A stretch of DNA of 32,718 nt, from NCBI GenBank assembly GCA_017395555.1, contig JAFPUE010000116.1, positions 1 through 32,718 of the forward strand, read 5' to 3'. The notes beneath the pieces were generated by a model. That model ran no database searches. It was not told the origin of the DNA and saw nothing but the letters and a program-made list of their open reading frames with translations. Positions 9,559 to 29,153 of this stretch are shown here, in pieces. This stretch comes from Ruminiclostridium sp. Its GTDB lineage: Bacteria; Bacillota; Clostridia; Oscillospirales; Ruminococcaceae. Positions within the stretch are counted from its first letter, which is position 1. The number at the start of each line of letters is the position of its first letter. Both the position numbers and the translations under genes were made by a program.

Positions 9559-10505
9559 ACGGCAGTCACCTCTTTTTCGGGTTTCAGTATTCTCGCAAGC
9601 AGCGAGCCGCCGTAAACTATCGGATATTCGCGCAGGGTGAACACAAGCCCGTCGCTTATCGCGCTGACATACTCCGCGACCGTACCGTTAAGCGGGTCAA
9701 GCACCTCGCCGATACATTCGCCCTCATGAATGGTGTCGCCGAAATGCACTCGCGGTACGAATACTCCCGCAGCGTCGGAATTGACAAAACCGACCTCTCT
9801 GCCTATCGACACGACAGGCTCTCTTACCGCGGAAACGTCGCCTGTCCATATCCCGAGCTCCTTCATCAGATTCAGCACGCCGATAAACAGTTGTTCGCCG
9901 TATTCCTGCGTTATCCTCATTCCCACGCCCATTTCCACAACCAGCGTCTTTACGCCGCGAGTGTTGAGCGTATGCGCGAGTGTGGATTCAAGCACCGTCG
10001 CGGATTCATGCACCCAGATCAGATCGACGTTCATAAGCTTCGCGTAAGGAACAAGAGTCTCCGCAGTCGGGACACTTATGCGTATCTGCGGTATCTCACG
10101 AAGAAAAATGTTGCTCGAATGAACATCAATGCAGACATCGGAGCCGAGCAGGTCTTCAACGATCGAAGCGCAAAGCACCTCCGCCATTGTACCGTCCTTC
10201 GACCCGGGAAACACGCGGTTCATATCGAGATCAAACATTGGTATCCCGCGGCTTATGGAATCAATACCCATGGGGTTGAGAGCGGGGTATATATCGACAG
10301 TTCCGTTGACCTTGTCAAGATTGTCGTTAAGAAATCTGCCGAGACGGTAAGCGAGATACTGCCCCTCAAGCTCGTCGCCGTGGGTCCCCGTGACTATGCT
10401 TATTCGCTTTGAGCCGCTGCCATGGGTTATACGCCGCTTCTGAATTATCAGATGCTCGTTTACCCCGAGAGCGGCTTTTGCGACTGTCTGAACCATTTTT
10501 ATCAC
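9555..10505 (-). CDS. Succinylglutamate desuccinylase/aspartoacylase-family zinc hydrolase (intact site)
   Basis: The 316-residue product keeps the expected residues: HGDE with His42 and Glu45, NRVFPG at 96-101 (substrate-binding Arg97), IDVHSS with His129, and the catalytic Glu191 in LVVEMGVG. A C-terminal lid-like beta domain includes IGEVLDPLNGTVAEYV. Family members hydrolyse N-acyl or amide bonds next to a carboxylate. The start could be GTG 10505 (AGGA, 6-base spacing) or ATG 10496 (GGTGA, 5-base spacing). It lies 15 bases after the transglutaminase gene and overlaps its degenerate paralog downstream. A role in cleaving an amide product of the ATP-grasp ligase is inference. Confidence 0.85.
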   Translation of the reverse strand: MIKMVQTVAKAALGVNEHLIIQKRRITHGSGSKRISIVTGTHGDELEGQYLAYRLGRFLNDNLDKVNGTVDIYPALNPMGIDSISRGIPMFDLDMNRVFPGSKDGTMAEVLCASIVEDLLGSDVCIDVHSSNIFLREIPQIRISVPTAETLVPYAKLMNVDLIWVHESATVLESTLAHTLNTRGVKTLVVEMGVGMRITQEYGEQLFIGVLNLMKELGIWTGDVSAVREPVVSIGREVGFVNSDAAGVFVPRVHFGDTIHEGECIGEVLDPLNGTVAEYVSAISDGLVFTLREYPIVYGGSLLARILKPEKEVTAV

Positions 10506-10520
10506 CAGTTTTCCTATATA

Positions 10521-11303
10521 TTAATAGCCTTGCTGCATTACCGAGCGTACAAGTGTCAGTTGTCTGGTGTAGCTGCCGAACATCACGCCCCGGTCTATCG
10601 CGCAGTCGGCGAAATCGCGGCCTTGCGAAAGTACAAGATAGTCCTCGTTCACAGGACGGTCGTTTGCGGGATCAAAGCCCTTCCATACGCCGTCCTCGAA
10701 GTATTCTATCCATGAGTGGGTCTCGCCGTCACAGAACGCGAGCCCCGCTATATAGCGGCATGGAATATGGTTCAGCCTGAGCAGCGACAGCATTATATGC
10801 GAGAAGTCCTGACATACTCCCGCGCTCGTCTCGAACGCTTCCGCGGCTGTCGTGTGCGATGTTGTCACGTCCTTCTGATATCTGAACACATCGGACAGCT
10901 TCGACGAGATAGTCTGTACGCGCTCCGACACCGACTCCTCCGACAGATCATCGGAAAGTGTTTCCAGAAACGATGCAAGCGCTGCCGACGGCTTTGTGAA
11001 TGCTGACTGGTACAGATAGCACGGCATATAATCCGTTCTGTGTCTTGTACAGTCGGTCTCGGCGGTACCCTTTATCTCGAAATCGAGAAAGCGGTGGTCG
11101 CCTTTTATGTAGCCGGCCGTTACGTTGTTGCCGAATGCGTCGGTACTTTGATCGACAGCGGTTATCGGGGATATGCTCAGTTCACAGCTGACAATGTGCT
11201 GAGTCGGTGTCTCGGGAGGTATAACCCGAAGAGCGAACGAATGCTCATGCACATAGTCGTCGAATGTGAGCTTTGTGGAAAAATAAAAGTTTATCTTCTT
11301 CAT
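10521..11303 (-). CDS. Transglutaminase-like cysteine peptidase
   Basis: The 260-residue product combines an N-terminal beta domain, typical of bacterial transglutaminase-like proteins, with a catalytic core. The triad is visible: Cys164 in SAGVCQDFSHIML, His196 in GETHSWIEYF and Asp211 in GFDPAND. This family is repeatedly found with circularly permuted ATP-grasp and alpha-E proteins, as here, and is thought to cleave or transfer amide bonds. No signal peptide is present, so it should act in the cytoplasm. It starts 11 bases after the alpha-E stop. Confidence 0.92.
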   Translation of the reverse strand: MKKINFYFSTKLTFDDYVHEHSFALRVIPPETPTQHIVSCELSISPITAVDQSTDAFGNNVTAGYIKGDHRFLDFEIKGTAETDCTRHRTDYMPCYLYQSAFTKPSAALASFLETLSDDLSEESVSERVQTISSKLSDVFRYQKDVTTSHTTAAEAFETSAGVCQDFSHIMLSLLRLNHIPCRYIAGLAFCDGETHSWIEYFEDGVWKGFDPANDRPVNEDYLVLSQGRDFADCAIDRGVMFGSYTRQLTLVRSVMQQGY

Positions 11304-11314
11304 AAAGTCTCCGT

Positions 11315-12004
11315 TTATGCGGATTCAAACAGCCTTTCGAGGCTTGCTACCGCTGCGCCCGATTTAAGGTCATACTCGTTTTCCTCACCGATTATCTCCA
11401 CAAGGTCGGAAAGGAACCTTGTGTTATAGCGGTACGGAGTATTCTTCGGCACGCGCCCGAGGCGTATACAAAGCCGCTCAAACTCCTTATGGACTTCCTC
11501 ATAAGGATATTTCATACGCAGATAGAGGTCGAGCCGTTCTGTTGATTTTCCGCAGTATATGATATTTTTGGTTTCCTCATCGTAGATGTTATCCGCTATA
11601 CAGCCCCAGAAGCCGTACAGCACATCTTCCAGCGGCAGCAGCGCGAACCGCGTGTTTTCCGAGCCCTTCGCACCTTTAAGCGTGTCCTTCGCTATCTGTA
11701 AAAACGAGAATGCTCCGCTCGAAATATCCTCGCGCAGAACTATCCCGTTGTCGTAGGCGCGTTCAAGACTGTACGCCACGGAACTGAAATTGTCCTTGTC
11801 GAACAGAAAACTTCTGAAAAAGCTCTTGCTGTCGTTATAGATATCCGGCAGATCAAAGTACCCGAGATACTCCTGATACCCTATCCCGCCGTCCAGCATT
11901 TTATCATAAGTTTCCTGCAGCGCTTTCAGGGTCGTGAATACGCGTTCTGTGTATCTTCCGAGCCAGTAAAGATTGTTGCCGTGTTCTATTGAGATCGTAC
12001 CCAT
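11315..12004 (-). CDS. Alpha-E domain protein (DUF403-like)
   Basis: The 229-residue, mostly helical product starts MGTISIEHGNNLYWLGRYTE; the NLYWLGRY-E-R stretch is characteristic of the alpha-E family that accompanies circularly permuted ATP-grasp ligases. Family members are often nearer 300 residues, so this is a short version, though the reading frame is intact and ends cleanly. Its start overlaps the end of the ATP-grasp gene by 19 bases, indicating tight coupling. Its biochemical role is unknown; it is presumed to be a partner of the ligase. Confidence 0.85.
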   Translation of the reverse strand: MGTISIEHGNNLYWLGRYTERVFTTLKALQETYDKMLDGGIGYQEYLGYFDLPDIYNDSKSFFRSFLFDKDNFSSVAYSLERAYDNGIVLREDISSGAFSFLQIAKDTLKGAKGSENTRFALLPLEDVLYGFWGCIADNIYDEETKNIIYCGKSTERLDLYLRMKYPYEEVHKEFERLCIRLGRVPKNTPYRYNTRFLSDLVEIIGEENEYDLKSGAAVASLERLFESA

Positions 12005-13332
12005 GTATCCTTAAAGCCTCCTCCCTGTGATGAATTGACTACGAATGAATCGGGATTCCGCGAGAATCTCGTAAGTCCCGATGCCCAGACCTTTGTTGTT
12101 TTTCCCGAAAGCACAAACGCTCTCAGGTCGGCTTTTCTCATAACTGTTTCGCCGTTATCGAGTATCGGCAGATCAACGAAATCTATGACATCCTGCGCGA
12201 TAAATCTTCTCGGCTGCGACAGTATCATATCTTTCAGGCCGGCAAGCTTCTCGCTGTCAAGATCACTGCCGAATACCACGCCGTAACCGCCTGCCTCGGC
12301 AACATCCTTGATAACGAGTCTGTCCAGATTGTCGAGAACATAGATCATGTCCGCCTTATAAAACGGCAGATATGTCGGTGCGTTTCTGAGTATCGGCTCC
12401 TCGCCGAGATAGTATTCTATCATCTTCGGCACGAAGTAGTAAATACCCTTGTCGTCCGCCACACCGTTGCCGGGAGCGTTTATGATCCCCACATTTCCCG
12501 AGCGGTAGGCTTCCATGAGATTAGGTATGCCGATAAGCGATTCCGGCAGGAATGTCAGCGGGTCAAGGTACTCGTCGGAAATGCGTCTGTACAGCACACC
12601 TATACGGGTTTTCTGCCCGGAATAGGTCTTATGCCACAGCATATTGTTCTCGACGAAAAGCTCGTCGCTGCGGACAAGCAGAGAATCGGTGTTCTCCGCA
12701 AGATAAGAATGCTCGAAATAAGCGGCGTTGTATCTGCCCGGGGTAAGTATGGCACGCACCCCGCCGCAGTTTACATAGTCCATGGTCTCGCGCAGCAGAT
12801 CGGGGTAGTTCCGGTTGTCAACTATGTTGTTGCTGCGAAAGGCTTCGGGGCTTGCTATCCTTGTGAGCTCACGCGCTATCAGCGGATATGAAGCACCCGA
12901 GGGTATGCGGAGATTGTCTTCGAGAATGTACCACTCGCCGTCCTTGCCCTGAACAAGGTCGATGCCGGAAATGTGGCTGTATATCTTGTTTCTGGGCGTT
13001 ATTCCCTCGCACTGAGCAAGATATCCCGATGAAATGTAGATGAAATCTTCGGGGATCTTACCGTCCTTTACGATCTTTTTATCGTGATATATGTCGTACA
13101 GAAACTGGTTAAGCGCATCAACACGCTGTATGAGTCCTTTTTCGATAGCAGCGAACTGTTCCGCGCCGATCACCCTCGGTATCGGGTCAAACGGAAAGAA
13201 CTGTTCCTTGAAAACGCCGTTCTTGTATATTCCGAACTTTACTCCGTACCGGCGGAGAAGCTCGTTTATCTCTTTTGCGTTTCCTATCGCTTCGGTGAAA
13301 TCAGCCGATCCGCGCAATACGTTTTCGTTCAT
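11986..13332 (-). CDS. Circularly permuted ATP-grasp ligase
   Basis: The 448-residue product carries the hallmarks of the circularly permuted ATP-grasp family (DUF404/407, COG2308): LEDNLRIPSGASY, NAPGNGVADDK, VIKDVAEAGGYGVVFG, DLRAFVLSGK and the C-terminal SRNPDSFVVNSSQGGGFKDT. ATP-grasp ligases form amide or peptide bonds through an acyl-phosphate; this subfamily is predicted to make small peptides or peptide tags. ATG 13332 follows AAAGAAAGG. It is second in the operon, after the degenerate M20 protein, and overlaps the alpha-E gene. It is the likely core enzyme; the substrates cannot be read from sequence. Confidence 0.93.
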   Translation of the reverse strand: MNENVLRGSADFTEAIGNAKEINELLRRYGVKFGIYKNGVFKEQFFPFDPIPRVIGAEQFAAIEKGLIQRVDALNQFLYDIYHDKKIVKDGKIPEDFIYISSGYLAQCEGITPRNKIYSHISGIDLVQGKDGEWYILEDNLRIPSGASYPLIARELTRIASPEAFRSNNIVDNRNYPDLLRETMDYVNCGGVRAILTPGRYNAAYFEHSYLAENTDSLLVRSDELFVENNMLWHKTYSGQKTRIGVLYRRISDEYLDPLTFLPESLIGIPNLMEAYRSGNVGIINAPGNGVADDKGIYYFVPKMIEYYLGEEPILRNAPTYLPFYKADMIYVLDNLDRLVIKDVAEAGGYGVVFGSDLDSEKLAGLKDMILSQPRRFIAQDVIDFVDLPILDNGETVMRKADLRAFVLSGKTTKVWASGLTRFSRNPDSFVVNSSQGGGFKDTWVRSQ

Positions 13333-14411: not shown

Positions 14412-15566
14412 TCAATCCCAGAGAGAAGAATAAATTCTGAGAATATCTTCTTTGGTCACAGCTTTGACCATGTTTGCGGGGCTTCCGCTCGCGAGAGCGT
14501 CATCAGCCATTTTATCCGCAGACGCGAGAAAAGCCTCCTTGTCGATGCCGTACTTTTCAAGCGTCGGGACTTCGCATATCCTGCATATATCTCCGAGCTT
14601 CGTGAGGAATTTTTCGGAGGCCGTCTTATCGCTGTCCGAGCTTTCGGCGGCTACGACCGCGCGGCCAAGCTCCGCGAACCGCTCATAAGCACCGTCAAGC
14701 GCAAAGCCTATGCACTTTTCAAGCAGCATCGCGTTTGACAGACCGTGCGGAACATGGAACAGCGCACCTATCGGACGGCTCATACCGTGAACGATAGTAA
14801 CAGAAGCGTTGTTGATTGCGATACCCGCTTCGAGAGCAGCTATCGACATCTGCGTTCTCGCTTCCGTATTCGTGCCGTCGCTGTACGCGGCGGGAAGATA
14901 CTTCATTATACGCTTGACCGCAGACATAGCAACTGCATCGGTGAGCGGCTGTGCAAGGCGTGAAGTATAGGATTCTACCGCGTGTGTGAGCGCGTCGAGC
15001 CCCGTCGAAGCCGTAACGCTTTTCGGCGCGGACATTGAGAATGCCGGGTCAATAACAGCGATCTTCGGTATCAGACAGTCGCCTTTGAGCAGCATCTTGA
15101 TGTCGGTCTCGCTGTCGGTAATGACCGTGAACTTTGTCGCTTCGGAGCCTGTACCGGCTGTTGTCGGTATCGCTGCCATAGGCGGCATATTGCCCTTTAT
15201 CACCTTGCCCATATAGTCGGAGATCTTACCGCCGTTCACCGAAAGAGCGGCTATTGCTTTCATGGTATCTATCGGACTTCCGCCGCCGACGGCTATCATA
15301 CAGTCGCAGTCCTCGACCTCATATCTTGCGAGTCCGGCGCTGACGATCTTATCGGTGGGCTCACCGGTAACGTCGGAAAAAATCGAGTATGCTGTCCTGT
15401 TCTTTGAGAGCATCCCGGTCAGCCTTTCAAAGCAGCCGAGCTTTATGACGTGCGGGTCTGTAACTATCAGGACGCGGTCGCCCATATTGCAAAGCTCTTT
15501 TTCCGCCGCATTGAGACTGCCCTCACCCGTGTATATCTTTGCGGGAATGATAAATTCTCTGCTCAT
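14412..15566 (-). CDS. Iron-containing alcohol dehydrogenase; candidate malonate semialdehyde reductase
   Basis: The 384-residue product is a group III Fe-dependent alcohol dehydrogenase. It has the NAD(P) loop GGGSPID (94-100), PTTAGTGSEAT (134-144), and metal ligands Asp191 and His195 in GLDALTHAVESY, His260 in VHGMSRP and His274 in HVPHG. In FucO-like enzymes the residue four after the third ligand is His; here it is Arg264, which I believe is a common subfamily variant. The operon supplies beta-alanine and a class-III aminotransferase, so reduction of malonate semialdehyde to 3-hydroxypropionate is a reasonable reaction, though the substrate is inferred only from context. ATG 15566 follows AAGGAG. 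It is the last gene of the operon. Confidence 0.88.
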   Translation of the reverse strand: MSREFIIPAKIYTGEGSLNAAEKELCNMGDRVLIVTDPHVIKLGCFERLTGMLSKNRTAYSIFSDVTGEPTDKIVSAGLARYEVEDCDCMIAVGGGSPIDTMKAIAALSVNGGKISDYMGKVIKGNMPPMAAIPTTAGTGSEATKFTVITDSETDIKMLLKGDCLIPKIAVIDPAFSMSAPKSVTASTGLDALTHAVESYTSRLAQPLTDAVAMSAVKRIMKYLPAAYSDGTNTEARTQMSIAALEAGIAINNASVTIVHGMSRPIGALFHVPHGLSNAMLLEKCIGFALDGAYERFAELGRAVVAAESSDSDKTASEKFLTKLGDICRICEVPTLEKYGIDKEAFLASADKMADDALASGSPANMVKAVTKEDILRIYSSLWD

Positions 15567-15577
15567 ATCGGTGCTCC

Positions 15578-16840
15578 TTAGTCATTATCAGCCTTAAGCA
15601 CTGCATTGAGCATTACAGTAGCGCCCGCGGTACAGTGTTCGACCGACGAGAACTCGGGTTCGCAGTGTGAAAGGCCGTCCTTCGACTGTACGAAGATCAT
15701 CGTTGTCGGGAGCATATACGAAGCGAACTGTGCGTCATGACCGGCGCCGGAGTGGATGTACTGGTGTTTTACGCCGCATTCCTCGGCGGCAGCCTTGACA
15801 TATCCGACAAGCTTCTTGTCCCAGTAAACGGTGTCACGATTCCACGCCTTTTCAACGGTACAGGTGCAGCCTGCCCATGTCTTATCCGCAAGGCTCTTGA
15901 CGATAGCGAGAACCTTTTCGAGCACCTCGGGCTTCTCGTGTCTTGCATCGAACGAGAAATCGAAGTAGTCGGGAACGCAGGTATGTACGCAGGGGTGGCA
16001 TACTACCTCACCGGTGGTGTAAACGAGCTCAGGATAGCCGAGCTTATCAATCTCTTCATGCAGATAGCAGAGCGCCTGCGAAGCCGCGAAGAACGCGTCC
16101 TTTCTCTTGGGCATCGGGAATGTACCTGCGTGGGTGGTCTGCCCCACAAACTTTATACGATAGTTGAACATACCGAGAACGCAGTCAACTACGCCTATTT
16201 CGTTGCCCGCATCTTCGAGTATCGGACCCTGCTCGATATGCGTTTCAAACATATACATGTATCTGTCGGGATCGAGTCTGAACTTTTTGTCGCCCTTGAA
16301 GCCCGATCTTTCGAGCGCCTCACCGAAGGTCTTTTCGGGGTCGAGAATGCTCTTTGACTGCATCATATCCTCATACCTGAACTTGCTTCTGATGTCCTCG
16401 GGGAGATAGTCATAGCAGACGATACCCGAACACATCATAGCCGGCGGATAGAGCGAGCCTTCCTCGTTCGTCCAGATCATAGCGGTGAGCGGGTGCTTAT
16501 GCGGAATGTTCTGCTCGACAAAAGTTTCGAGAACTTCCATTGCGCTCATAACGCCGAGGATTCCGTCATAGTTGCCGCCATTCTTGACGGAGTCACAGTG
16601 CGAAGCCATTACTATACGCTTTGCGGCGGGGTCGCTTCCGGGGATAGTAGCGTAAAGGTTGGCTACATCATCGGTCTCAATAGTCGCACCGATCGCAAGC
16701 ATACGGTCGATGAACTCTTTTCTCGCCATTATCGCTTCCTCGGAGAGCGAATATCTTGTGATACCGCCGTGTCCCGCGTCGCCGAACTTACTGAAAGTCT
16801 TTATCTTATCTTCCATTCGTTTTTCGCTGCATTTATACAT
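15578..16840 (-). CDS. M20 family Zn amidohydrolase; probable N-carbamoyl-beta-alanine amidohydrolase (beta-ureidopropionase)
   Basis: The 420-residue product matches the hydantoinase/carbamoylase branch of M20. The dinuclear metal site is complete: His81 and Asp83 in ASHCDS, Asp92 in GGNYDG, Glu126/Glu127 in TNEEG, His201 in ETHIEQGP and His368 in GAGHDA. The lid domain carries QTTHAGTFPM. Bacterial beta-ureidopropionases of this family release beta-alanine, CO2 and ammonia from N-carbamoyl-beta-alanine, which dihydropyrimidinase from this operon would supply. Other N-carbamoyl amino acids or allantoate remain possible. ATG 16840 follows GAAAGGA. A degenerate homolog lies at 13348-14124 in the next operon. 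Confidence 0.9.
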   Translation of the reverse strand: MYKCSEKRMEDKIKTFSKFGDAGHGGITRYSLSEEAIMARKEFIDRMLAIGATIETDDVANLYATIPGSDPAAKRIVMASHCDSVKNGGNYDGILGVMSAMEVLETFVEQNIPHKHPLTAMIWTNEEGSLYPPAMMCSGIVCYDYLPEDIRSKFRYEDMMQSKSILDPEKTFGEALERSGFKGDKKFRLDPDRYMYMFETHIEQGPILEDAGNEIGVVDCVLGMFNYRIKFVGQTTHAGTFPMPKRKDAFFAASQALCYLHEEIDKLGYPELVYTTGEVVCHPCVHTCVPDYFDFSFDARHEKPEVLEKVLAIVKSLADKTWAGCTCTVEKAWNRDTVYWDKKLVGYVKAAAEECGVKHQYIHSGAGHDAQFASYMLPTTMIFVQSKDGLSHCEPEFSSVEHCTAGATVMLNAVLKADND

Positions 16841-17373: not shown

Positions 17374-18708
17374 TTAAACGAGCTTATCCGCTTCATCAAG
17401 CACTTCGTCGAGCTTCACCATTTCCTCGCGCACCTGTTCGGGCGTGATGATGAGCGGCGGCGAAATTAGGATCATATTTTCGTGCGAATAAGTCATAAAT
17501 CCTTTCTTTTTGAGCGCCCCGATGAGCTTGCCCATGATGCCCTCGGGGTCTTTTCCGTAAGGCACGAGAGGCTCTCTGGTCTCGCGGTCCTTTACGAGCT
17601 CGACCGCCGAGAAAAGTCCGATGTATCTTACATCGCCGACGCTCTTATGCTTTGCCTTCATTTCTTCGAGGCACTTACCAAGCTCTGCTCCGGAGGTATT
17701 GACATTCTTCAGAATATCGGCCTTCTTGTAGAAGTTCAGACAGGCGACACCTGCCGCGCATGCGAGAGGATGACCGCTGTATGTGAGTCCGCAGGAAAGC
17801 AGATGATCGTCGAAGTATTCCGCGATCTTCCTGCTTACCGCTACGCCGCCTAGCTGTACATAGCCGCAGGTAACGCCTTTCGCAAAGCTTACGATGTCGG
17901 GCTTCACATCGAAATTCTCGAACGCGAACATCTTGCCGGTTCTGCCGAAGCCTGCCATTACCTCGTCGCAGATCATCATAATCCCGAACTCGTCGCATAT
18001 CGCGCGAACGCCGGCAAGATAGCCTTTCGGCGGGATTATTACACCGTTGGAGCCGGTTATGGTCTCCATTACGATAGCAGCGATATTCTCGGCACCCTCA
18101 TAGATGACCTGCTCGCGGAGCCTGCGTACATAGAACGCGGATGCTTCCTCCTCTGTCTTGAAAGGCAGGTTGTCGCGGTACATATACGGATCAAAGAACT
18201 TCACAAAGCCCGGAACTCCCGGTTCAAGCGGCTGTCTGCGGGGCTCGCCTGTGAGACTTCCCGCGCCGAACGTCGAACCGTGATAGCTGCGGTAGCGGGA
18301 TAATACCTTCGGTCTGCCCGTGAACATACGCGCGATCTTGACCGCGTTCTCGTTCGCGTCGGCACCGCCGTTGGTGAAGAACACCTTACCCATATTGTCG
18401 GGCATGAGCTCGATTATCATCTTAGCGAGCTCGCCGCGGGGCTCGCTTCCGTATCCGGGAGAAAGGTAGCAGTATTTCTCTGCCTGCTCCTTTATCGCGT
18501 CGATTATGTCGCGGTTGCCGTGACCGACATTTAAGTTCACGAGCTGCGACGACATATCCGTGTAGCGGTTACCGTCGAAGTCCCACATATAGATGCCTTC
18601 GGCCTTCGCTATCGGGATAGGGTCAAGCCCCTTCTGCTTCGACCAGGACTGTAAGTTATATGTCCTGTGGCCATGCTTGATCTTTTCGGAAATGTTTTCC
18701 GTGCTCAT
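17374..18708 (-). CDS. Class-III PLP aminotransferase; candidate beta-alanine transaminase
   Basis: The 444-residue product is an omega-amino-acid aminotransferase. Motifs include FTNGGADANENAVKIAR, SYHGSTFGAGSLTGEPRR, ICDEVMAGFGRTG with Asp248 (PLP ring nitrogen) and SFAKGVT with the Schiff-base Lys277, then TYSGHPLACAAG. Length is typical. In this operon beta-alanine is the expected amino donor, giving malonate semialdehyde. GABA or related omega-amines cannot be excluded. ATG 18708 follows AAGGAGTGAT and overlaps the PucR stop by four bases, so the two are translationally coupled. Confidence 0.9.
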   Translation of the reverse strand: MSTENISEKIKHGHRTYNLQSWSKQKGLDPIPIAKAEGIYMWDFDGNRYTDMSSQLVNLNVGHGNRDIIDAIKEQAEKYCYLSPGYGSEPRGELAKMIIELMPDNMGKVFFTNGGADANENAVKIARMFTGRPKVLSRYRSYHGSTFGAGSLTGEPRRQPLEPGVPGFVKFFDPYMYRDNLPFKTEEEASAFYVRRLREQVIYEGAENIAAIVMETITGSNGVIIPPKGYLAGVRAICDEFGIMMICDEVMAGFGRTGKMFAFENFDVKPDIVSFAKGVTCGYVQLGGVAVSRKIAEYFDDHLLSCGLTYSGHPLACAAGVACLNFYKKADILKNVNTSGAELGKCLEEMKAKHKSVGDVRYIGLFSAVELVKDRETREPLVPYGKDPEGIMGKLIGALKKKGFMTYSHENMILISPPLIITPEQVREEMVKLDEVLDEADKLV

Positions 18709-19883
18709 TGAATATCACTCCTTTTATCGTACATATCGAGGACTTCCTCGATCAGAAACGCAAGTATGAGCGAGCTTTTCGCGCCGTCATCCAGCTCATG
18801 CCCGAGGACATCACGGATAGCCCGCATTTTGATGTTTATCGTGTTGCGGTGAACGCCCGCCGCCTCGGCGACCTCGTTCACGCTTCCGTTGTGGGTGAGA
18901 TACAGTCTCAGGGTGTCGCAGTAATCGGCATTCCGCTCAACATCGAACCTGCGGAGTGTTCCGAGGTTTTCTCTGACGAACTCGCGCAGTATATTCATGT
19001 TCTTCACGCCGAAAACGAGCTTCATTATGCCTATGCCGCCGTAGTCCGTAAGGACACGCTTCTGCAGCACCGACATACACCGCGCCGCTTCCGCCTGTTC
19101 GTAAGCTTCACCGACTTCGGTCAGACCGCTGACGGTATGCGATACGCCCATAAACACATCACCGCCGTTTGCCGCGAGCTTTTTCAGCTCCTCGCAGAAC
19201 CGCTTTATCTCCTCGTCGGAACAGTTCTGCCGCACCGCAGTGAGCGAGCCGCCCTGCATGAACAGCGACGAATGGTAGTTCGAACGCTTTATCATGCGCC
19301 AGATGCTCATATCCATTGACTGGACCGCCGAGCCGGTAACATTCGCGCCGTCCGAAAGAACGCTCACGGTGATGACCGTGTATTTGCTCTTTTCGCCGAA
19401 GCCCGATCTACCGAGCAGATCGCCGTAGTTTTTCAGCGCGGCGGGGTCTTTTATTATCGCTCTGAACGCCTCACCGACGCTGCTCTCGTGCTTTTCGTTG
19501 CCGATTATCCGTCGGCAGAAATCGTAGGAGATATCGACTATCCGCGAACTCCACGGGATCGTGAAAAGCGGAAAGTCGTTCTGCTCGCAGTAAACTATCA
19601 CGGGCGACGGCACCGATGTGATGTGCGGGCCTATGTTCACCACAAGCCCGACAGCACCTTTCTTACGAAGGCTTATCACGAAGTCGCGCAGCCATTCGTT
19701 GCCGCTGTGTCCTATGCCGGTGGTGAAGATGAGCTCGTTGCCGTGAAGGAAATCGGGTACCTCGCTGTCCTCAACGATATGCACCCAGCGCACGGTGTTT
19801 TCCGTGCCGCCGATACCCGCTATAAGCTTCATAGCGTAGCTTTTCTCCGCGTTCGCGCAGAGCTGGGATAATGAGATCGCCAT
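18705..19883 (-). CDS. PucR-family transcriptional regulator
   Basis: The 392-residue product has an N-terminal PucR ligand domain (VRWVHIVEDSEVPDFLHGNE, LIFTTG), a middle GGDEF-like/CdaR region, and a C-terminal PucR helix-turn-helix with NEVAEAAGVHRNTINIKMRA (about residues 337-356). PucR regulators commonly control purine or pyrimidine and amino-acid catabolism in response to a metabolite. It is embedded in the operon, six bases after the dehydrogenase gene. Its ribosome site GGGGTGA lies in a potential GGGG/CCCC hairpin just before the ATG, which may keep translation low. Regulation of its own operon is inferred from position. Confidence 0.9.
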   Translation of the reverse strand: MAISLSQLCANAEKSYAMKLIAGIGGTENTVRWVHIVEDSEVPDFLHGNELIFTTGIGHSGNEWLRDFVISLRKKGAVGLVVNIGPHITSVPSPVIVYCEQNDFPLFTIPWSSRIVDISYDFCRRIIGNEKHESSVGEAFRAIIKDPAALKNYGDLLGRSGFGEKSKYTVITVSVLSDGANVTGSAVQSMDMSIWRMIKRSNYHSSLFMQGGSLTAVRQNCSDEEIKRFCEELKKLAANGGDVFMGVSHTVSGLTEVGEAYEQAEAARCMSVLQKRVLTDYGGIGIMKLVFGVKNMNILREFVRENLGTLRRFDVERNADYCDTLRLYLTHNGSVNEVAEAAGVHRNTINIKMRAIRDVLGHELDDGAKSSLILAFLIEEVLDMYDKRSDIQ

Positions 19884-19884
19884 A

Positions 19885-19896
19885 GGGGATCACCCC
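19885..19896 (-). promoter_or_regulatory. Hairpin covering the PucR ribosome site
   Basis: On the - strand GGGG-TGAT-CCCC lies two bases before ATG 19883. The GGGG(TGA) arm is also the ribosome site and contains the TGA stop of the preceding gene. Translation of the regulator probably depends on ribosomes finishing the upstream gene. Confidence 0.45.
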
Positions 19897-21362
19897 CTTT
19901 TCGGTTTCATGATACGTTTGGTCTTATCCGTTATCGCTCCCGACGGACAGACGAGCATACACAGGTGACAGCCGACGCATTTCGAAGCGTTCAGCTTCGC
20001 CTTTCCGCTGTTCATCGTTATCGCCTGATGACCCGCGTCCGAGCAGGATATAAAGCATCTTCCGCAGCCGAGGCATTTCTCCGTATCAAATGACGGGAAT
20101 ACCACTGTCGAGCGGTCGAGCGTATCCGCGGGAACGAGATTCGGGAGCGCTGCGCCCACGAGCTCGGTAATCTTCGATATACCGTGAGACGCCATGTAGT
20201 TCTTCGTTCCCGAAATTATGTCGTCGATGATGCGGTAGCCGTACTGCATCACCGCTGTTGTCACCTGAATGTTGCGGCAGCCGAGCATAATAAATTCCAG
20301 CGCGTCGTGCCACGTTTCGATACCGCCCATGCCGCTGAGCTGCATTTCCGACAGCTGCGGGCATTTCGCAAGGTCGTGTATGAAGCGTAACGCTATCGGC
20401 TTTACCGCCTTTCCGGAATACCCCGATACCGAGCATTTTCCGCCTACCGACGGGCTGCTCTCAAAGGTGTCGGTGTTTATCCCGAGAATGCTCTTGATCG
20501 TATTTATTGCAGCAATACCGTCCGCGCCGCCTTGTGCCGCAGCTATCGCGGGTATCTCCATGTTCCCGATGTTCGGGGTCATTTTCGCGAGAACGGGGAG
20601 ATTTGTCGCGCTCTTTACGAGCTTTGTGTAACGCTGCACAAGCTCGGGGGACTGCCCGACATCCGAGCCGAGACCGCTTCCGCTCATGTGCGGACAGCTG
20701 AAATTGCACTCGATGATGTCGGCACCGGCTTTTGTTACAAGCTCGGAGAGCCGCGTCCATTCCTCGTCGGTCTGACCCATTATCGACGCTACGAGCACCT
20801 TTGTCGGGTAGTTCTCTTTGAGTCGTTTAAGCACATCGAGGTTGTATTCGAGCGGGTGATCGGAGATCTGTTCGAGATTCTTGAAGCCTATGAACGGAGT
20901 TCCTTCTTTCCCGATAGCTCCGAAACGCGGCGATACCTCATCGGGTATCAGGAACCCTATGGTCTTGAATACCGCGCCGCCCCAGCCCGCCTCGAAGGCG
21001 CGGGCGCACATATCGTAATCGCCCGCGACGATCGAAGAAGAAAGGAAGAACGGATTTTCGCATTTAACGCCGCAGAAATCTATCGAGAGATCGGGCTCCT
21101 TGTCGTATGTAACCGGCTTCGGGAGCTGTGTTGCCGTATCCCGTATTCGTATTGGCTGATCGTAATGTATGCAGGCTTTTTCACATTCGCCCGGGCAGCA
21201 CGCACATACTTCCGCGTTTATGGATTTACCCGCCTCGGTCTCGTTCTCGAACCTTATCGCCCGGATCATTCTTGCGGGGTCATATCCCTTCGGACACGCC
21301 TTTGTACAGGCGCCCTCGGCACACAGCATACATCTTGCAGCTTCTTCTCTTGATCTTAACAT
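19890..21362 (-). CDS. preA: Dihydropyrimidine dehydrogenase, PreA-type, with short N-terminal Fe-S domain
   Basis: The 490-residue product reduces uracil or thymine in the first catabolic step. Residues 1-75 resemble the Fe-S part of mammalian DPD domain I: Cys11, Cys14, Cys19 and Cys23, then Cys53, Cys55, Cys56, Cys60 and Cys64. Residues about 90-420 form an FMN-binding DHODH-like barrel, with the active-site Cys223 in NFSCPHM and the TAVMQYG region. The C-terminus holds two 4Fe-4S motifs, CLGCGRCFISC and CVGCHLCMLVC. The FAD/NADPH domains of DPD or PreT are absent here and in the neighbouring genes, so electrons must come from another protein such as ferredoxin or a distant flavoprotein. 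ATG 21362 follows AAGGATATT. It is ten bases after dihydropyrimidinase. Confidence 0.9.
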   Translation of the reverse strand: MLRSREEAARCMLCAEGACTKACPKGYDPARMIRAIRFENETEAGKSINAEVCACCPGECEKACIHYDQPIRIRDTATQLPKPVTYDKEPDLSIDFCGVKCENPFFLSSSIVAGDYDMCARAFEAGWGGAVFKTIGFLIPDEVSPRFGAIGKEGTPFIGFKNLEQISDHPLEYNLDVLKRLKENYPTKVLVASIMGQTDEEWTRLSELVTKAGADIIECNFSCPHMSGSGLGSDVGQSPELVQRYTKLVKSATNLPVLAKMTPNIGNMEIPAIAAAQGGADGIAAINTIKSILGINTDTFESSPSVGGKCSVSGYSGKAVKPIALRFIHDLAKCPQLSEMQLSGMGGIETWHDALEFIMLGCRNIQVTTAVMQYGYRIIDDIISGTKNYMASHGISKITELVGAALPNLVPADTLDRSTVVFPSFDTEKCLGCGRCFISCSDAGHQAITMNSGKAKLNASKCVGCHLCMLVCPSGAITDKTKRIMKPKRG

Positions 21363-21372
21363 AATAATATCC

Positions 21373-22728
21373 TTATTTCAGACTGCACTTGACGAACTTT
21401 CCGTATCCTTTTTCGCCGACGAACTCACCATTGTCGTAAACGAGCTTGCCGCGGCAGTAGGTCTGAACGGGATAGCCGTGGACTTTCACGCCTTCCCATA
21501 TCGTATGGTCGCAGTCAGAGTGCATTTTTTCATTCGTTATCGTAAAGTCGATCGTCGGGTCGTAGATGACGATGTCCGCATCCTTACCGACAGCGATCGC
21601 GCCTTTTGTCTTACAGCCGAAGATCTTCGCGGGATTTGCCGAGCAGAGCGCAACTGCTTTCTCAAAGCTTATCCTGCCCTCGTTCGCCGCGGACAGCATA
21701 TACGGGTACATATTCTCGATACCCGCGCAGCCGTTCGGTATCTTCGTGAAATCGTCCTTGCCCCAGTCTTTTTCGGTGGACTGGAAAGGACAGTGATCGG
21801 TAGCTATCGTGTCGATGTCACCGCGCCTGATAGCTTCCCAGATAGCGTCCTGACTTTCCTTGCCCTTCATAGGCGGCGAGCAGACGAAGTTTCTGCCGTC
21901 TTCACGCTTATAAACTTCGCTTGTGAATTCGAGGTACTGCGGACAGGTCTCGGCGTATATCTCGTAGCCCTCGTCCTTTGCCTTTGTAACAGCCTCGACA
22001 CCCTGCTTGTTGGCAAGATGCACGATGTAGAGCGGAGCGCCGCTCGCCTTTGCCCACTGTATCGCACGCTCGTCCGCTTCGCCCTCGACAAATTCGGGAC
22101 GTGACATATAGTGATACCACGCGCTGGTCTTACCCTCGGAGAGATACTTCTTCGTGAGCATGTTCACGAGCTCGTTGTTCTCGGCGTGAACTTCGATAAG
22201 AGCGCCGACTTCCTTTGCTTTCTGAAGCACCTGGAAGAATACTCCGTCGGTAACGCCGAAATCATATACCATAAATACCTTGAACGACGGAACGCCGATC
22301 TCAACGCATTCGCCGATGCCGTCGATCAGACCGTTCTCGACGTCCTTTACCGCAACGTGGAACGAGTAATCGACCGCAGCGACTGGTGCGCAGAGAGCAT
22401 CACGTCTCTTTACCGTATCGGTCATCTTCTCGCCGAAATCCTGAAGCGCGAAGTCGAACACAGTGGTAGTTCCGCCGCAGGCAGCAGCTCTCGTTCCCGC
22501 GAAATAGTCGTCCGAGGAGACTGTGCCGCCGAACGGCATCGCAAGGTGAGTATGTGCGTCTATCGCACCGGGTAGTACGAGCTTTCCGCTCGCGTCGATG
22601 ATGTTTTCGCATTCGGAGTCCGATATGCTGTCGGAGATGCAGACGACTTTGCCGTCCTTTATGCCTACGTCCGCTTTAATGGTGCCGGACGCGTTGACTA
22701 TCGTACCGTTCTTGATTATCATATCCAT
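21373..22728 (-). CDS. hydA: Dihydropyrimidinase / D-hydantoinase
   Basis: The 451-residue product opens the dihydrouracil ring to N-carbamoyl-beta-alanine. The binuclear zinc site is complete and spaced as in known hydantoinases: His59 and His61 in DAHTHLAMP, a carboxylatable Lys150 in PSFKVFM, His181 in VHAENN, His237 in IVHLAN and Asp311 in IATDHCPF. Tyr155 matches the substrate-contacting tyrosine. ATG 22728 follows AAGGAG. It is preceded by the transporter genes and followed by the dehydrogenase gene, consistent with one pathway. Confidence 0.94.
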   Translation of the reverse strand: MDMIIKNGTIVNASGTIKADVGIKDGKVVCISDSISDSECENIIDASGKLVLPGAIDAHTHLAMPFGGTVSSDDYFAGTRAAACGGTTTVFDFALQDFGEKMTDTVKRRDALCAPVAAVDYSFHVAVKDVENGLIDGIGECVEIGVPSFKVFMVYDFGVTDGVFFQVLQKAKEVGALIEVHAENNELVNMLTKKYLSEGKTSAWYHYMSRPEFVEGEADERAIQWAKASGAPLYIVHLANKQGVEAVTKAKDEGYEIYAETCPQYLEFTSEVYKREDGRNFVCSPPMKGKESQDAIWEAIRRGDIDTIATDHCPFQSTEKDWGKDDFTKIPNGCAGIENMYPYMLSAANEGRISFEKAVALCSANPAKIFGCKTKGAIAVGKDADIVIYDPTIDFTITNEKMHSDCDHTIWEGVKVHGYPVQTYCRGKLVYDNGEFVGEKGYGKFVKCSLK

Positions 22729-22854: not shown

Positions 22855-24018
22855 TTACTTCTTATAAACGAGTACCAGACCGGAACGCTGATATACCTGT
22901 GCGATCTCAAGGAGATCCATACCGCCTGCGTTAGCGGAGATAAGGTTGGATACCCATGTTACACCGAAATCGACTGTACCGTTGTTTACGGCTGTTGTCT
23001 CGCCTATGTCGCCGCCGCCGGAAACGATAGTAACATTTAAGCCCACTTCGTCATAGAAGCCCTTCGCCTTTGCAACGAAGTAGCCCATGAACTGTGCCTG
23101 CGGGAGCCACTTGAGCTGAATGGAAACATCGGTCTTTTCGGGAGCTCCGAAGCTGCCTGCCAGAGCGTCTGTCCAGTACGAGGTGCTGCGGATGTCATCA
23201 AGTGTAAGCGCCTGTAATTTGTCCGCTGCCGTGCTGTCGTCGAGCTTGATGTACTGCTTAGCGAGATCGAGAGTCTGCTGCATTGCAGCCTCGTCCATCT
23301 TACCGTAATCCTTGACAGCGTTTCCTGTTGTATCGGTCTCAACGAGCTTCTTTACCTCGGAAGCCATATAAGCCTGGTGATCGGAGGAAACGGACGAACC
23401 CGCCTCAAATACGATCTGAGCGGCCTCCTCGGGATTTGCACAAGCGTACTCCCAACCCTTCATGGAAGCGGAGATGAACGCCTTTACTGTGTTCGGGTTC
23501 TTCTCGGCAAAAGCCTTTGTGGTGAAAAGATTGTCTTCGAGCATAGCCACGCCCTCGTTGTTCATATCTATGATGCCGACGGTATCGCCGTAGCCGTAGC
23601 CGCCCTCATAGCTGTTCTGAACAAGACCGAGCTCGTTATATGTCATTGCGGATGCAAGCGTTATCGAGTTGTCGTCAAAGCCGTCCATATCGAACGCCTG
23701 TGACAGGAACTTGTTCTCCTGACCGTACTTTGTGAGCAGGGCGAAGATCTCGTACTCGTTGCCGAGACCCCAGTTTCCGACCTTGCCCGCCTGTGCCGCT
23801 GCGATTATTCTGTCGCTGTCGGATATTGAAGAAGGTGCTGCTTCTGTAGCAGCCGCTTCTGTTTCTCCGCCGGCTGCCGTAGTTTCAGCCGCAGCAGCAG
23901 TTGTTGTAGCTGCCGGAGCTGCTGTTGTGCTTGCCGGTGCCGAGCTGCACGCCGAGAATGCCGATACGATCATGGTTGCGGCGATGACAGCCGCGAGAGT
24001 TTTCTTGGAAAATTTCAT
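22855..24018 (-). CDS. ABC transporter substrate-binding lipoprotein (NMT1/ThiY-like), circularly permuted
   Basis: The 387-residue product begins with a lipoprotein signal ending FSAC (Cys24) and an Ala/Thr-rich linker to about residue 63. The rest matches NMT1/ThiY-type pyrimidine-binding proteins but in swapped order. Residues about 75-289 correspond to the usual second half (GKVGNWGLGNEYE, SQAFDMDGF, ASAMTYNELGLV). Residues 290-387 correspond to the usual first half (SIQLKWLPQAQFMGYFVAKA, VDFGVTWV, QVYQRSGLVLVYKK), where the protein ends. The frame is continuous and the ribosome site AAAGGAGG is strong, so this is not a frameshift product. Position next to the permeases supports transport; pyrimidine or a related ring compound is the likely ligand. 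Confidence 0.88.
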   Translation of the reverse strand: MKFSKKTLAAVIAATMIVSAFSACSSAPASTTAAPAATTTAAAAETTAAGGETEAAATEAAPSSISDSDRIIAAAQAGKVGNWGLGNEYEIFALLTKYGQENKFLSQAFDMDGFDDNSITLASAMTYNELGLVQNSYEGGYGYGDTVGIIDMNNEGVAMLEDNLFTTKAFAEKNPNTVKAFISASMKGWEYACANPEEAAQIVFEAGSSVSSDHQAYMASEVKKLVETDTTGNAVKDYGKMDEAAMQQTLDLAKQYIKLDDSTAADKLQALTLDDIRSTSYWTDALAGSFGAPEKTDVSIQLKWLPQAQFMGYFVAKAKGFYDEVGLNVTIVSGGGDIGETTAVNNGTVDFGVTWVSNLISANAGGMDLLEIAQVYQRSGLVLVYKK

Positions 24019-24096
24019 AGAAATTTACCTCCTTTACCTTTCTTCTGCACATTGTTTTTTGTTTATAAAGAGCGGTTTCCCGCGCTTTTACGTTTT

Positions 24097-24912
24097 TCAC
24101 CTGCGTTTCCGCAGTGCTACAGCCTCTATCAGCATAAGTACCGCATACATCACGATACCGATTATGCAGGCTGTAACTATGTATGCCCATGCGGTTGAAT
24201 ACTGCGCTATCAGTATGTTCTCACGTATCTGACGGCCGACACCGGTTATGTACTCCGCGAAATACTCGCTGACAAGTGCGCTTATGACACTTCCCGGAAC
24301 GCTTACACGAAGCGCGGTGAAGATGTACGGAACGCTGTTCGGGAGCCGGAGCTTAAAGAATTCCGTGAGTCTTCCCGCCGCGTAAGTCTTCATCAGATCG
24401 TCCGAGAACGGCGGCAGCTCGGTAAGTCCGCGGTAGGCGTTGACGCTCATCGAAGCCATACTCACTACCGTCACGACGATCACCTTTGCGACCATGCTCC
24501 TGACTTCCGCCTCGGAGCTTACGTCTTTTGTCCAGTTGATTATAACGGGCGCGAGAGCGACTATCGGTATCGCATTGAACGCCGAAACTATCGTAAGTCC
24601 GCCGCTTCCGTATTTCGGAAATACCGTCGCGAATATCGCTATCAGGTAGCCGAGGATCGAACCGAATATCAGCCCGAGCACCGCGACCTCTACCGATGCC
24701 CAAACGTTCGCCATTATCTTGTCGCTGTTCTCGCTCATTATTGTTGCGATCCTTGTCGGATACGGAAGAACGTATTCGTCCGTGTTCAGCAGCGTATGTA
24801 ATAGTCCCGTCTGCCATGCGGCTATAAGAGCGACACCGAATATCAGCGGACAAACCACCGACTGCACGGCGTTTCGCCGTTTTTTATTAACTTTTGCAGC
24901 CACGGAGATCAT
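24097..24912 (-). CDS. ABC transporter permease (second of pair)
   Basis: The 271-residue product is a BPD-type permease with about six hydrophobic spans and the EAA loop near GRLTEFFKLRLPNSVPYIFT. The family includes SsuC/ThiX/RibX-like transporters of pyrimidine-type compounds and sulfonates. ATG 24912 overlaps the upstream permease stop by four bases (ATGA). A GTG at 24903 with AAAGG nine bases upstream is an alternative start that shortens it by three residues. It is followed by the binding protein, so ATPase, two permeases and lipoprotein form one transporter. Confidence 0.9.
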   Translation of the reverse strand: MISVAAKVNKKRRNAVQSVVCPLIFGVALIAAWQTGLLHTLLNTDEYVLPYPTRIATIMSENSDKIMANVWASVEVAVLGLIFGSILGYLIAIFATVFPKYGSGGLTIVSAFNAIPIVALAPVIINWTKDVSSEAEVRSMVAKVIVVTVVSMASMSVNAYRGLTELPPFSDDLMKTYAAGRLTEFFKLRLPNSVPYIFTALRVSVPGSVISALVSEYFAEYITGVGRQIRENILIAQYSTAWAYIVTACIIGIVMYAVLMLIEAVALRKRR

Positions 24913-25727
24913 CCTTTCTTTCCGATGCGTTTATAGGGGCAGAGCAGCGTTTCGATCAGCCCCATAAGGTAAAAGCTGAGTATTCCGATAACTGCGCTGA
25001 AAACTACTATATCCCAGAACACGTATCTTGTCATAGCGCCTTTGAGCGACTGTGACAGCAGACACCCGAGTCCGATACCGCCCTGTAACGTATCGACAAG
25101 TATCGACGCAGTTATCGCCATAGGCGCGGATATTTTCAGACCTGTGAAAAAGTAGGGGATACACGCAGGTATCATCGTTTTTGTGTAAAGCTGGAACTTG
25201 TTAGCCGCGTATGAGTACATCAGCTCGTGCGCCTCGCGCCTTACCGACTTGAATCCTGCAAGCGTGTTTGCCGCTACCGGATAGAACGTAAGTATCGCGG
25301 CTATCACGATTCGGCTTATCGCTATATCACCCGTTATCGCGTTTATTATCGGTGCCATTCCGAGTATCGGTATAAGCTGTATCAGCATAAGATACGGGAA
25401 CGCGATCTTCTCGATTATCCCCGAAAGGCTCATGAGAAGCGCCAGCACAAATCCGGACGCTATACCGATGACATATCCTATCGCAGCACGGGAGAGTGTT
25501 GCTCCCGCGTTTTCAAGAACCATTTCAAGCGCGCTCTGCGACCCGTTTATCTTGCGGTCACTTGTAAGCGAATCGACGATGCCTCCGAGATGAGGGAGGA
25601 CGTTTTCGGGAGTTCGCTTTACCTCCGCCACACGTGTCGCACATATTTCCCAGATGACGATTATTACCGCTATCCATACGAGCGTCACGAACGCCTTGCT
25701 GTTCAGTATTTTTTTAATGATCTTCAT
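24909..25727 (-). CDS. ABC transporter permease (first of pair)
   Basis: The 272-residue product is a BPD-type inner-membrane permease. It has an N-terminal span (FVTLVWIAVIIVIWEI), further spans including YVIGIASGFVLALLMSL and FPYLMLIQLIPILGMAPI, and the EAA loop (YAANKFQLYTKTMIPACIPY). It is related to the downstream permease, so the pair probably forms a heterodimer. ATG 25727 follows AGGAG at 9 bases. It starts 12 bases after the ATPase gene. Confidence 0.92.
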   Translation of the reverse strand: MKIIKKILNSKAFVTLVWIAVIIVIWEICATRVAEVKRTPENVLPHLGGIVDSLTSDRKINGSQSALEMVLENAGATLSRAAIGYVIGIASGFVLALLMSLSGIIEKIAFPYLMLIQLIPILGMAPIINAITGDIAISRIVIAAILTFYPVAANTLAGFKSVRREAHELMYSYAANKFQLYTKTMIPACIPYFFTGLKISAPMAITASILVDTLQGGIGLGCLLSQSLKGAMTRYVFWDIVVFSAVIGILSFYLMGLIETLLCPYKRIGKKG

Positions 25728-25739
25728 CCATATCAGCTC

Positions 25740-26525
25740 CTAAACACCTTCAAAGCTGTTTCTTACCTTCGCCACAAGCGCGGTAAATTCGGGAGTGTCT
25801 CTTATCTCCATAGCTCTCGGACGCGGCAGGTCAATGTCTATTACCGCCGAAAGTCTTCCCGGGTGAGGCGACAGCACACATACCCTGTCCGACAGGAAGA
25901 CCGATTCCGAGATGTTGTGTGTTACGAAAATTATCGTTTTGTTAGTCTTGCGCCAGATCTTGAGCAAGTCTATGTGCAGCTTCTCTCTTGTGAACTCATC
26001 AAGCGCCGAAAACGGCTCGTCCATAAGAAGTATCTCGGGCTGTAACGCGAGCGCTCTTGCAATACCGACTCTCTGCTGCATACCACCCGAAAGCTGTCTC
26101 GGGTAATGATCGGCGAATTCCGAAAGTCCGACAAGATCAAGCATCTTTATCGCACGTTCATGCCGCTCGGCTTTGCTTTCATGGATTATCTCAAGCGGAA
26201 GCTCGATGTTCTTTATAACTGTGCGCCATTCGTAAAGCACCGCGCTCTGGAATACCATTCCGTACTTGCGCTTGAGTCTTGCTTCCTTCGGTGTTTCTCC
26301 GCCTATAAGCACCTTGCCGGAAGTTGGTTGCAACAGATCGGCAATGATGCGTAGAAGTGTTGTCTTTCCGCAGCCGGAAGGACCAAGCAGCGAAATGAAC
26401 TCGCCTTTGTGTATGTCCATTGTGACGCTTGTGAGTGCCTGAACTTCTTTGCCGTCCGCTCCGTCGTAGGTCATTCCGACATTATCAAGCATTATTTCTG
26501 CATTATTTAATTTATCATCTTTCAT
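25740..26525 (-). CDS. ABC transporter ATPase
   Basis: The 261-residue product is a nitrate/sulfonate/pyrimidine-type ABC ATPase. Walker A GPSGCGKTT is at residues 48-56, the signature LSGGMQQRVGIARAL near residues 137-151, Walker B ILLMDEPFSALDE near 161-173, and the switch His follows in FVTHNISE. It powers the two permeases encoded downstream. It is the first complete gene of the operon, with a promoter at 26602-26630. ATG 26525 follows AAGGTGA, and an upstream reading frame overlaps its start. Confidence 0.95.
   Translation of the reverse strand: MKDDKLNNAEIMLDNVGMTYDGADGKEVQALTSVTMDIHKGEFISLLGPSGCGKTTLLRIIADLLQPTSGKVLIGGETPKEARLKRKYGMVFQSAVLYEWRTVIKNIELPLEIIHESKAERHERAIKMLDLVGLSEFADHYPRQLSGGMQQRVGIARALALQPEILLMDEPFSALDEFTREKLHIDLLKIWRKTNKTIIFVTHNISESVFLSDRVCVLSPHPGRLSAVIDIDLPRPRAMEIRDTPEFTALVAKVRNSFEGV

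Positions 26526-26630: not shown

Positions 26631-29153
<2,523 letters not shown>

Follow-up and report, generated by a model that had tools for sequence, protein, structure and literature searches.

A circularly permuted NMT1/ThiY-type substrate-binding protein in the importer of a predicted pyrimidine-degradation operon of Ruminiclostridium

Can the binding protein of an importer carry its two halves in reversed order and still be a conserved, inherited gene product? The question is raised by a contig of Ruminiclostridium sp. (JAFPUE010000116.1 of assembly GCA_017395555.1, positions 1 to 32,718; we call this whole analysed stretch of 32,718 nucleotides the window), in which a reverse-strand gene at 22855..24018 encodes P0001, a 387-residue NMT1/ThiY-type substrate-binding protein (SBP). 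The initial annotation, made from the letters of this DNA and its open reading frames (ORFs), had described the halves of P0001 as reversed; the ORF, its coordinates and the motifs listed were as it said, and the reversal was borne out by a PDB search, by the order of the Pfam profile matches and by dot plot and rotation scan.

P0001 matches PF09084 in two stretches (94.5 bits against a curated cutoff of 20.5, E 1.1e-26), and at E 0.001 this family and PF13379 are the only ones found. The best NMT1 stretch, at the C-terminal end of P0001 (residues 308-387), falls on profile positions 2-81 of 216, so the order of the canonical profile is not kept; a family scan nevertheless gives an ordinary NMT1 match in which the rearrangement stays hidden, a caution for annotation. 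With phmmer, residues 297-364 aligned to residues 7-73 of the solved relative 4nmy and residues 81-223 to its residues 114-259, and in the canonical, normally ordered protein L118 (348 residues) the counterparts of P0001 79-285 and 298-386 are 148-345 and 45-133. The dot plot by identity against a canonical homologue, which the initial annotation had proposed as a check, gave two main off-diagonal lines with L074 of Paenibacillus caui, at offsets of -85 (58 windows) and +237 (50 windows), with indel-shifted pieces at -89 (16 windows) and -87 (4 windows) and one stray window at -27. In global alignment with the same protein, P0001 from residue 67 onward scored 308 in its native order and 551 in its best rotation, the 15 top rotations (547-551) starting at residue 257 or within 277-298, while 100 shuffled sequences averaged 16.4 and reached 37 at most; homology in the normal order was rejected on this basis. 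That P0001 is a circular permutant is, in our judgement, virtually certain.

The protein can be divided accordingly. Residues 1-66 (23821..24018, reverse strand, as for all parts of this gene) comprise a signal peptide, a lipobox-like Cys24 with an atypical Phe at -3, and a low-complexity linker, residues 23-62 having a predicted local distance difference test score (pLDDT) below 50; with an N-terminal signal and a lipobox Cys, we class P0001 as a lipoprotein. Residues 67-293 (23140..23820) are the second half of a canonical NMT1 protein, strands beta-6 to beta-10, and, naming by strand order, probably hold most of domain II, the second hinge and the second half of domain I. The part that is normally N-terminal comes last, at residues 294-387 (22858..23139), with strands beta-1 to beta-5; by the same naming it would span the first half of domain I, the first hinge and beta-5 of domain II. 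A fusion linker at residues 286-297 (23128..23163) joins the old C-terminus (..STSYWTDALAG) to the old mature N-terminus (..TDVSIQLKW). A Shine-Dalgarno-like element read from the sequence, AAAGGAGG (24028..24035, reverse strand), lies 9 bases 5' of the ATG.

Such an arrangement could also arise from an assembly error, or from a distinct truncated gene, either fused accidentally or in decay at the 3' end; the genome of the window is indeed a draft (137 contigs, 86.67% complete), and residues 294-387 are those that normally start such proteins. This explanation is refuted by independent genomes, since the same order is present in 71 further full-length loci, with isolates and a complete chromosome among them, and the gene is a single uninterrupted frame with conserved flanks to its linker. 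Against five close orthologues, the nonsynonymous divergence (dN) of residues 294-387 is 0.005-0.012 at a synonymous divergence (dS) of 0.8-1.3, compared with a dN of 0.04-0.06 for residues 67-293; purifying selection acts strongly on the transplanted part. Examination for a normal-order alignment, a truncated gene or an assembly error thus turned up none of the three, and we consider the chance of an artefact negligible. The initial annotation's picture of a functional-looking permutant with a good ribosome-binding site and transporter neighbours was confirmed as well, the function itself being a prediction from sequence.

To what extent is the permuted form a lineage? A search with 8-residue patterns found 78 loci, of which 71 were full-length permuted, 5 partial but consistent with permutation (L064, L065, L066, L069 and L076, the last a fragment at a contig end spanning residues 273-319 only) and 2 canonical (L074 and L078). 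The carriers of the permuted form belong to Bacillota and Spirochaetota. In whole-genome samples the permuted form was recognised as one collinear match; in the phylum and class samples at most 4 first-look candidates were scored per genome, making the counts lower bounds. On this basis it occurs in at least 2 of 398 genomes of the phylum and, with certainty, in at least 6 of 391 of the class, the window's own genome included in both. The class sample further holds one split copy, in G911, whose gene lies on two contigs (residues 47-283 and 347-387) and was not counted as certain; in G1003 one part only was matched. Within the genus, 9 of 35 other members have the permuted form in addition to the window's genome, and in a phylum sample around the spirochaete G400 it was present in 1 of 198, G400 itself. 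Both parts in normal order were found in 33 of 148 sampled genomes from the family that includes P. caui, in 6 of 73 genomes of another order (that of G367) and in G1228, which belongs to the window's own order. The script that calls the order scored 1 of 29 canonical rows as permuted, most likely L115, whose extracted ORF (206 residues) lacks the first half.

In a careful tree of 80 rows (40 permuted, entered in rotated form, 35 canonical and 5 outgroup), the permuted proteins formed one clade (100/100) beside canonical Bacillota proteins L118 and L134-L141 (95/97), with the canonical proteins paraphyletic; in a quick tree the permuted proteins were likewise one group (85), and the canonical ones fell on one side of a branch (84). 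A homologue search for the same order, as the initial annotation had advised, therefore did reveal a lineage. Since the solved relatives 4nmy and 3ix1 and Thi5 align with the canonical protein in normal order, we take that order as ancestral, and a single origin of the permuted SBP from a canonical ancestor would be the simplest history. Spirochaete rows stand at three places within the permuted clade in the quick tree and at two in the thinned careful tree, suggesting repeated transfer. As for the route, the simplest would be a tandem duplication, followed by in-frame fusion of the C-terminus of the first copy to the mature N-terminus of the second, and, as a last step, loss of the outer halves.

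The C-terminus of canonical L156 (..IDTSYWKEATGK) is similar to the internal ..IRSTSYWTDALAG of P0001, which continues via a short linker into TDVSIQLKW, resembling a canonical mature start; the old termini have thus been fused end to end. The initial annotation had held that VYKK leads directly into GNEYE in the standard family, but this is not so: canonical relatives have some 20 residues (SAGINSPADLKGKKVGNWMG in L074, for example) between VSKK and GNEFE or GNEYE. The KVGNW strand of this stretch is retained as residues 79-83, where the permuted domain starts. Only one piece of the canonical fold remains unaligned in P0001, the loop and short helix that follow beta-5 (L118: SKTSKGINSPADLKG), and the N-terminal helix of P0001 (residues 67-76) takes the place of that short helix. 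By strand order against CA3427, the cut would separate beta-5 from beta-6 within domain II, a little beyond hinge 1, which fits the hinge-side loop that had been suggested for the new ends, and the membrane anchor would lead into domain II instead of domain I, that is, into the other lobe. The published sheet orders of CA3427 are 2-1-3-10-4 in domain I and 7-6-8-5-9 in domain II (further literature drawn on: PMC2861598, PMC10087775, PMC3073944). As these two orders interconvert when renumbered from the new start, the cut would mark the point that matches the old ends by pseudo-twofold symmetry, and we surmise that permutation has swapped the lobes while leaving the chain in the standard type II topology. 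Both hinge crossings would be kept, and Venus-flytrap closure on the ligand should still take place.

Natural permutation among SBPs is already known, and two systems call for comparison. OpuAC of Bacillus subtilis (2b4l/2b4m) has been reported to be circularly permuted relative to ProX, molybdate-binding proteins and CysB, with less than 24% identity to these partners (Lo and Lyu 2008, PMC2395249). Like P0001 it is a lipid-anchored type II SBP of a Gram-positive bacterium with natural permutation relations, and it is collinear with the permuted model, so that P0001 might be of this glycine betaine-binding type, with no separate permutation in NMT1 proteins. The collinear match is unspecific, however, because many ordinary type II SBPs, as well as LysR domains, can be aligned over residues 76-387 too. 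We had read the match as a shared permuted topology and withdrew this reading, as 45 of the 50 PDB rows listed, these ordinary proteins included, reach residue 387; the match is better seen as pseudo-symmetry of the fold, with no common event shown. Among the same 50 rows, no NMT1-family chain covers the whole permuted model except PqqT (9b1u, 9b1v), in a pseudo-symmetric register. Further, OpuAC differs in ligand and sequence family and is 10-14% identical to P0001, whereas canonical NMT1 homologues from 11 loci are 47-57% identical in the N part and 40-47% in the C part; the Pfam scan at E 0.001 found no OpuAC profile match in P0001; and, in a tree built without OpuAC rows, the permuted clade falls amid canonical members of the NMT1 family. 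We therefore regard membership in the OpuAC type as very improbable.

The second system is TpMglB-2 (Tp0684) of Treponema pallidum, a permuted glucose-binding lipoprotein of 'Type Ic / Cluster Bc' (PMC4990184). Its permuted part is 13% identical to E. coli MglB, related proteins occur in treponemes and in Gram-positive gut bacteria, and a tie to anchoring has been suggested by the authors of that paper; as in P0001, the first strands of the N-lobe have been relocated to the C-terminus. It differs, by the same account, in its type I fold, altered strand order, added fourth hinge crossing and sugar ligand. Assignment of P0001 to this class (type I, three-segment hinge with a fourth crossing) was rejected, for the ten strands of its canonical homologue are laid out in the type II manner of CA3427 and ThiY. 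ThiY (3ix1), the thiamin-binding SBP of C. difficile (4nmy) and yeast Thi5 share the NMT1/THI5 fold and weak similarity in both parts; these thiamine-pathway proteins have the normal order. No permuted NMT1-type SBP was named in the titles or opening lines of abstracts among the literature matches listed, which is no proof of absence; we judge the NMT1-type case, with its close canonical counterpart, to be a new addition to a phenomenon already known.

What does P0001 bind? Its gene lies in an operon with the order ATPase, two permeases, SBP, dihydropyrimidinase, PreA-like protein, PucR regulator, aminotransferase, small ORF, carbamoylase and alcohol dehydrogenase, all on the reverse strand. 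The importer genes are the ABC (ATP-binding cassette) ATPase (25740..26525, profile matches) and, by Pfam, permease B (24909..25727) and permease A (24097..24912), both BPD_transp_1. Downstream follow a dihydropyrimidinase/D-hydantoinase (21373..22728; TIGR02033, 498 bits, cutoff 393), a PreA-like dihydropyrimidine dehydrogenase with an N-terminal Fer4_20 domain (19890..21362; NF006183, 577 bits, cutoff 335), a PucR-family regulator (18705..19883, Pfam), a class III aminotransferase (17374..18708), a small conserved ORF with no Pfam match that is also present in L151 (16931..17353), a hydantoinase/carbamoylase family amidase that is a candidate beta-ureidopropionase by inferred substrate (15578..16840; TIGR01879, 317 bits, cutoff 204) and an iron-containing alcohol dehydrogenase (14412..15566). 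The aminotransferase and the dehydrogenase are candidates for a beta-alanine aminotransferase and a malonate-semialdehyde reductase, respectively, assignments that we presume. With the PreA-like, TIGR02033 and TIGR01879 proteins all above their cutoffs, the set for reductive pyrimidine degradation is complete in the window.

This context recurs among the relatives. The upstream order ATPase, permease B, permease A was present in 69 of 70 testable permuted loci, placing these SBPs beside an ABC importer, and 59 of 67 had a dihydropyrimidinase no further than 1.5 kb downstream. Most canonical SBPs examined, in Paenibacillaceae (L119-L121, L123-L125) and other Bacillota (L118, L146, L148, L149, L156), sit in equivalent operons; these are of the same family and have the ATPase, two permeases, dihydropyrimidinase and PreA-like protein as neighbours, several also the aminotransferase and PucR, and they differ in normal chain order and in permeases that are only 36-47% identical to those of the window. 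From operon context we predict a pyrimidine or close derivative as ligand, and the full statement, that P0001 is the permuted NMT1/ThiY-type binding lipoprotein of an ABC importer for a pyrimidine-type ligand in a pyrimidine operon, seems to us probable. A real and functional permuted protein could have another ligand than a pyrimidine base or dihydropyrimidine, e.g., a compound like thiamine or hydroxymethylpyrimidine, a hydantoin or a ureido acid: the closest relatives of known structure are Thi5 or proteins that bind thiamin or formylaminopyrimidine, and seven spirochaete-type loci have no dihydropyrimidinase after the transporter. With a match to dihydropyrimidinase, PreA or carbamoylase in 68 of 76 permuted loci, and with canonical homologues in the same context, another ligand is possible although we think it unlikely. 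Genome G1096 combines a permuted SBP, set in a complete pyrimidine operon (L129/L151, contig C36), with a canonical-order paralogue (L147, contig C49) that is 35-36% identical and has its own ATPase and permeases, with no pyrimidine enzymes within the 18 kb fetched.

The anchor is not invariant. A lipobox-like Cys was found by pattern in 62 of 72 permuted copies, 63 with L025 added by eye, and 9 of 72 lack it and look like soluble secreted proteins, indicating that the lipid tether is usual, not essential to the permuted form. Seven of the nine are in the spirochaete-type loci (L032, L041-L045 and L055), which have a signal peptide without lipobox Cys and no dihydropyrimidinase directly downstream, and apparently encode a permuted protein that is soluble in the periplasm.

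Several points weigh against our reading: 1) domains and topology were assigned from strand order and the published description of CA3427 rather than by coordinate superposition, and the model of P0001 does not resolve strand beta-7 (pLDDT of 66 in block 101-110); 2) the relatives were sought on genome contigs by exact patterns, which distant permuted or intermediate forms may escape; 3) a long outgroup branch (5.7 changes per column) leaves the root among the canonical proteins poorly fixed; 4) no duplication intermediate was seen in the loci examined, intergenic DNA not having been searched for remnants; and 5) a dihydropyrimidinase does not come next in 8 of 67 testable loci, seven of them spirochaete-type.

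Has the rest of the importer changed along with its SBP? We compared median identities (%) of the window's proteins to distant permuted loci (54-64 loci) with those to canonical Bacillota loci outside Paenibacillus (5; 4 for PreA), omitting L122, L127, L128, L147 and L150 on the canonical side and 9 close loci, L015, L065 and L076 on the permuted side. The ATPase (66 vs. 67), dihydropyrimidinase (63 vs. 63) and PreA (58 vs. 59) were alike in the two comparisons, unlike the permeases (65 vs. 44 and 60 vs. 44) and the two SBP parts (83 vs. 52 and 76 vs. 42); the minimum for permease B, 26%, is probably due to L009, whose contig is cut inside permease A. In quick, unrooted trees with long-branch warnings, a single branch (98 and 100 for the two permeases) set the permuted-associated permeases apart, whereas the ATPase needs 2 changes of label (supported branches force only 1) and the dihydropyrimidinase labels are mixed, 3 or more changes being supported. 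The SBP and permeases either changed jointly as the anchor moved or were swapped in as a unit. For the former, we tentatively postulate that re-cutting at the pseudo-twofold point exchanged the lobes and led the anchor to domain II, altering docking, so that both permeases re-evolved while ATPase and enzymes stayed unchanged, a scenario that may well not hold. The latter would have SBP and permeases replaced by a distant paralogous transporter whose SBP was already permuted, the permutation having arisen outside the operon. A divergence jump confined to SBP and permeases, and permeases that separate where dihydropyrimidinase labels intermix, would agree with it, but the adjoining ATPase shows no jump, and the closest canonical SBP relatives examined are mostly in pyrimidine operons (exceptions L127, L147 and L150, with no pyrimidine enzymes within the stretches fetched); we find such a replacement rather unlikely.

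Other features of the window deserve mention. Adjoining the operon is a forward-strand gene for a large serine recombinase (27444-29153; Recombinase, DUF4368, zinc ribbon), whose resolvase match begins late, at profile position 57, with a short ORF without Pfam match just upstream (27444-27662); the gene may be interrupted, and its presence hints that a mobile element lies next to the operon. On the reverse strand are a row of CP_ATPgrasp_2 (circularly permuted ATP-grasp), Alpha-E and transglutaminase-like genes (10521-13332) and two neighbouring AstE/AspA-type succinylglutamate desuccinylase/aspartoacylase genes (8635-10505).

The value of P0001 lies in a canonical counterpart that is close and in the same context. 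Permuted and unpermuted SBPs that are 40-57% identical per segment (11 loci) serve the same kind of operon, one of them within the window's own order, and they form a natural matched pair for the effect of permutation on ligand affinity, closing, tethering and permease docking. If joint change of SBP and permeases with the moved anchor is true, then, together with the other permuted SBPs of Gram-positive bacteria and treponemes, permutation may be a recurrent route to a new geometry of tethering and docking.
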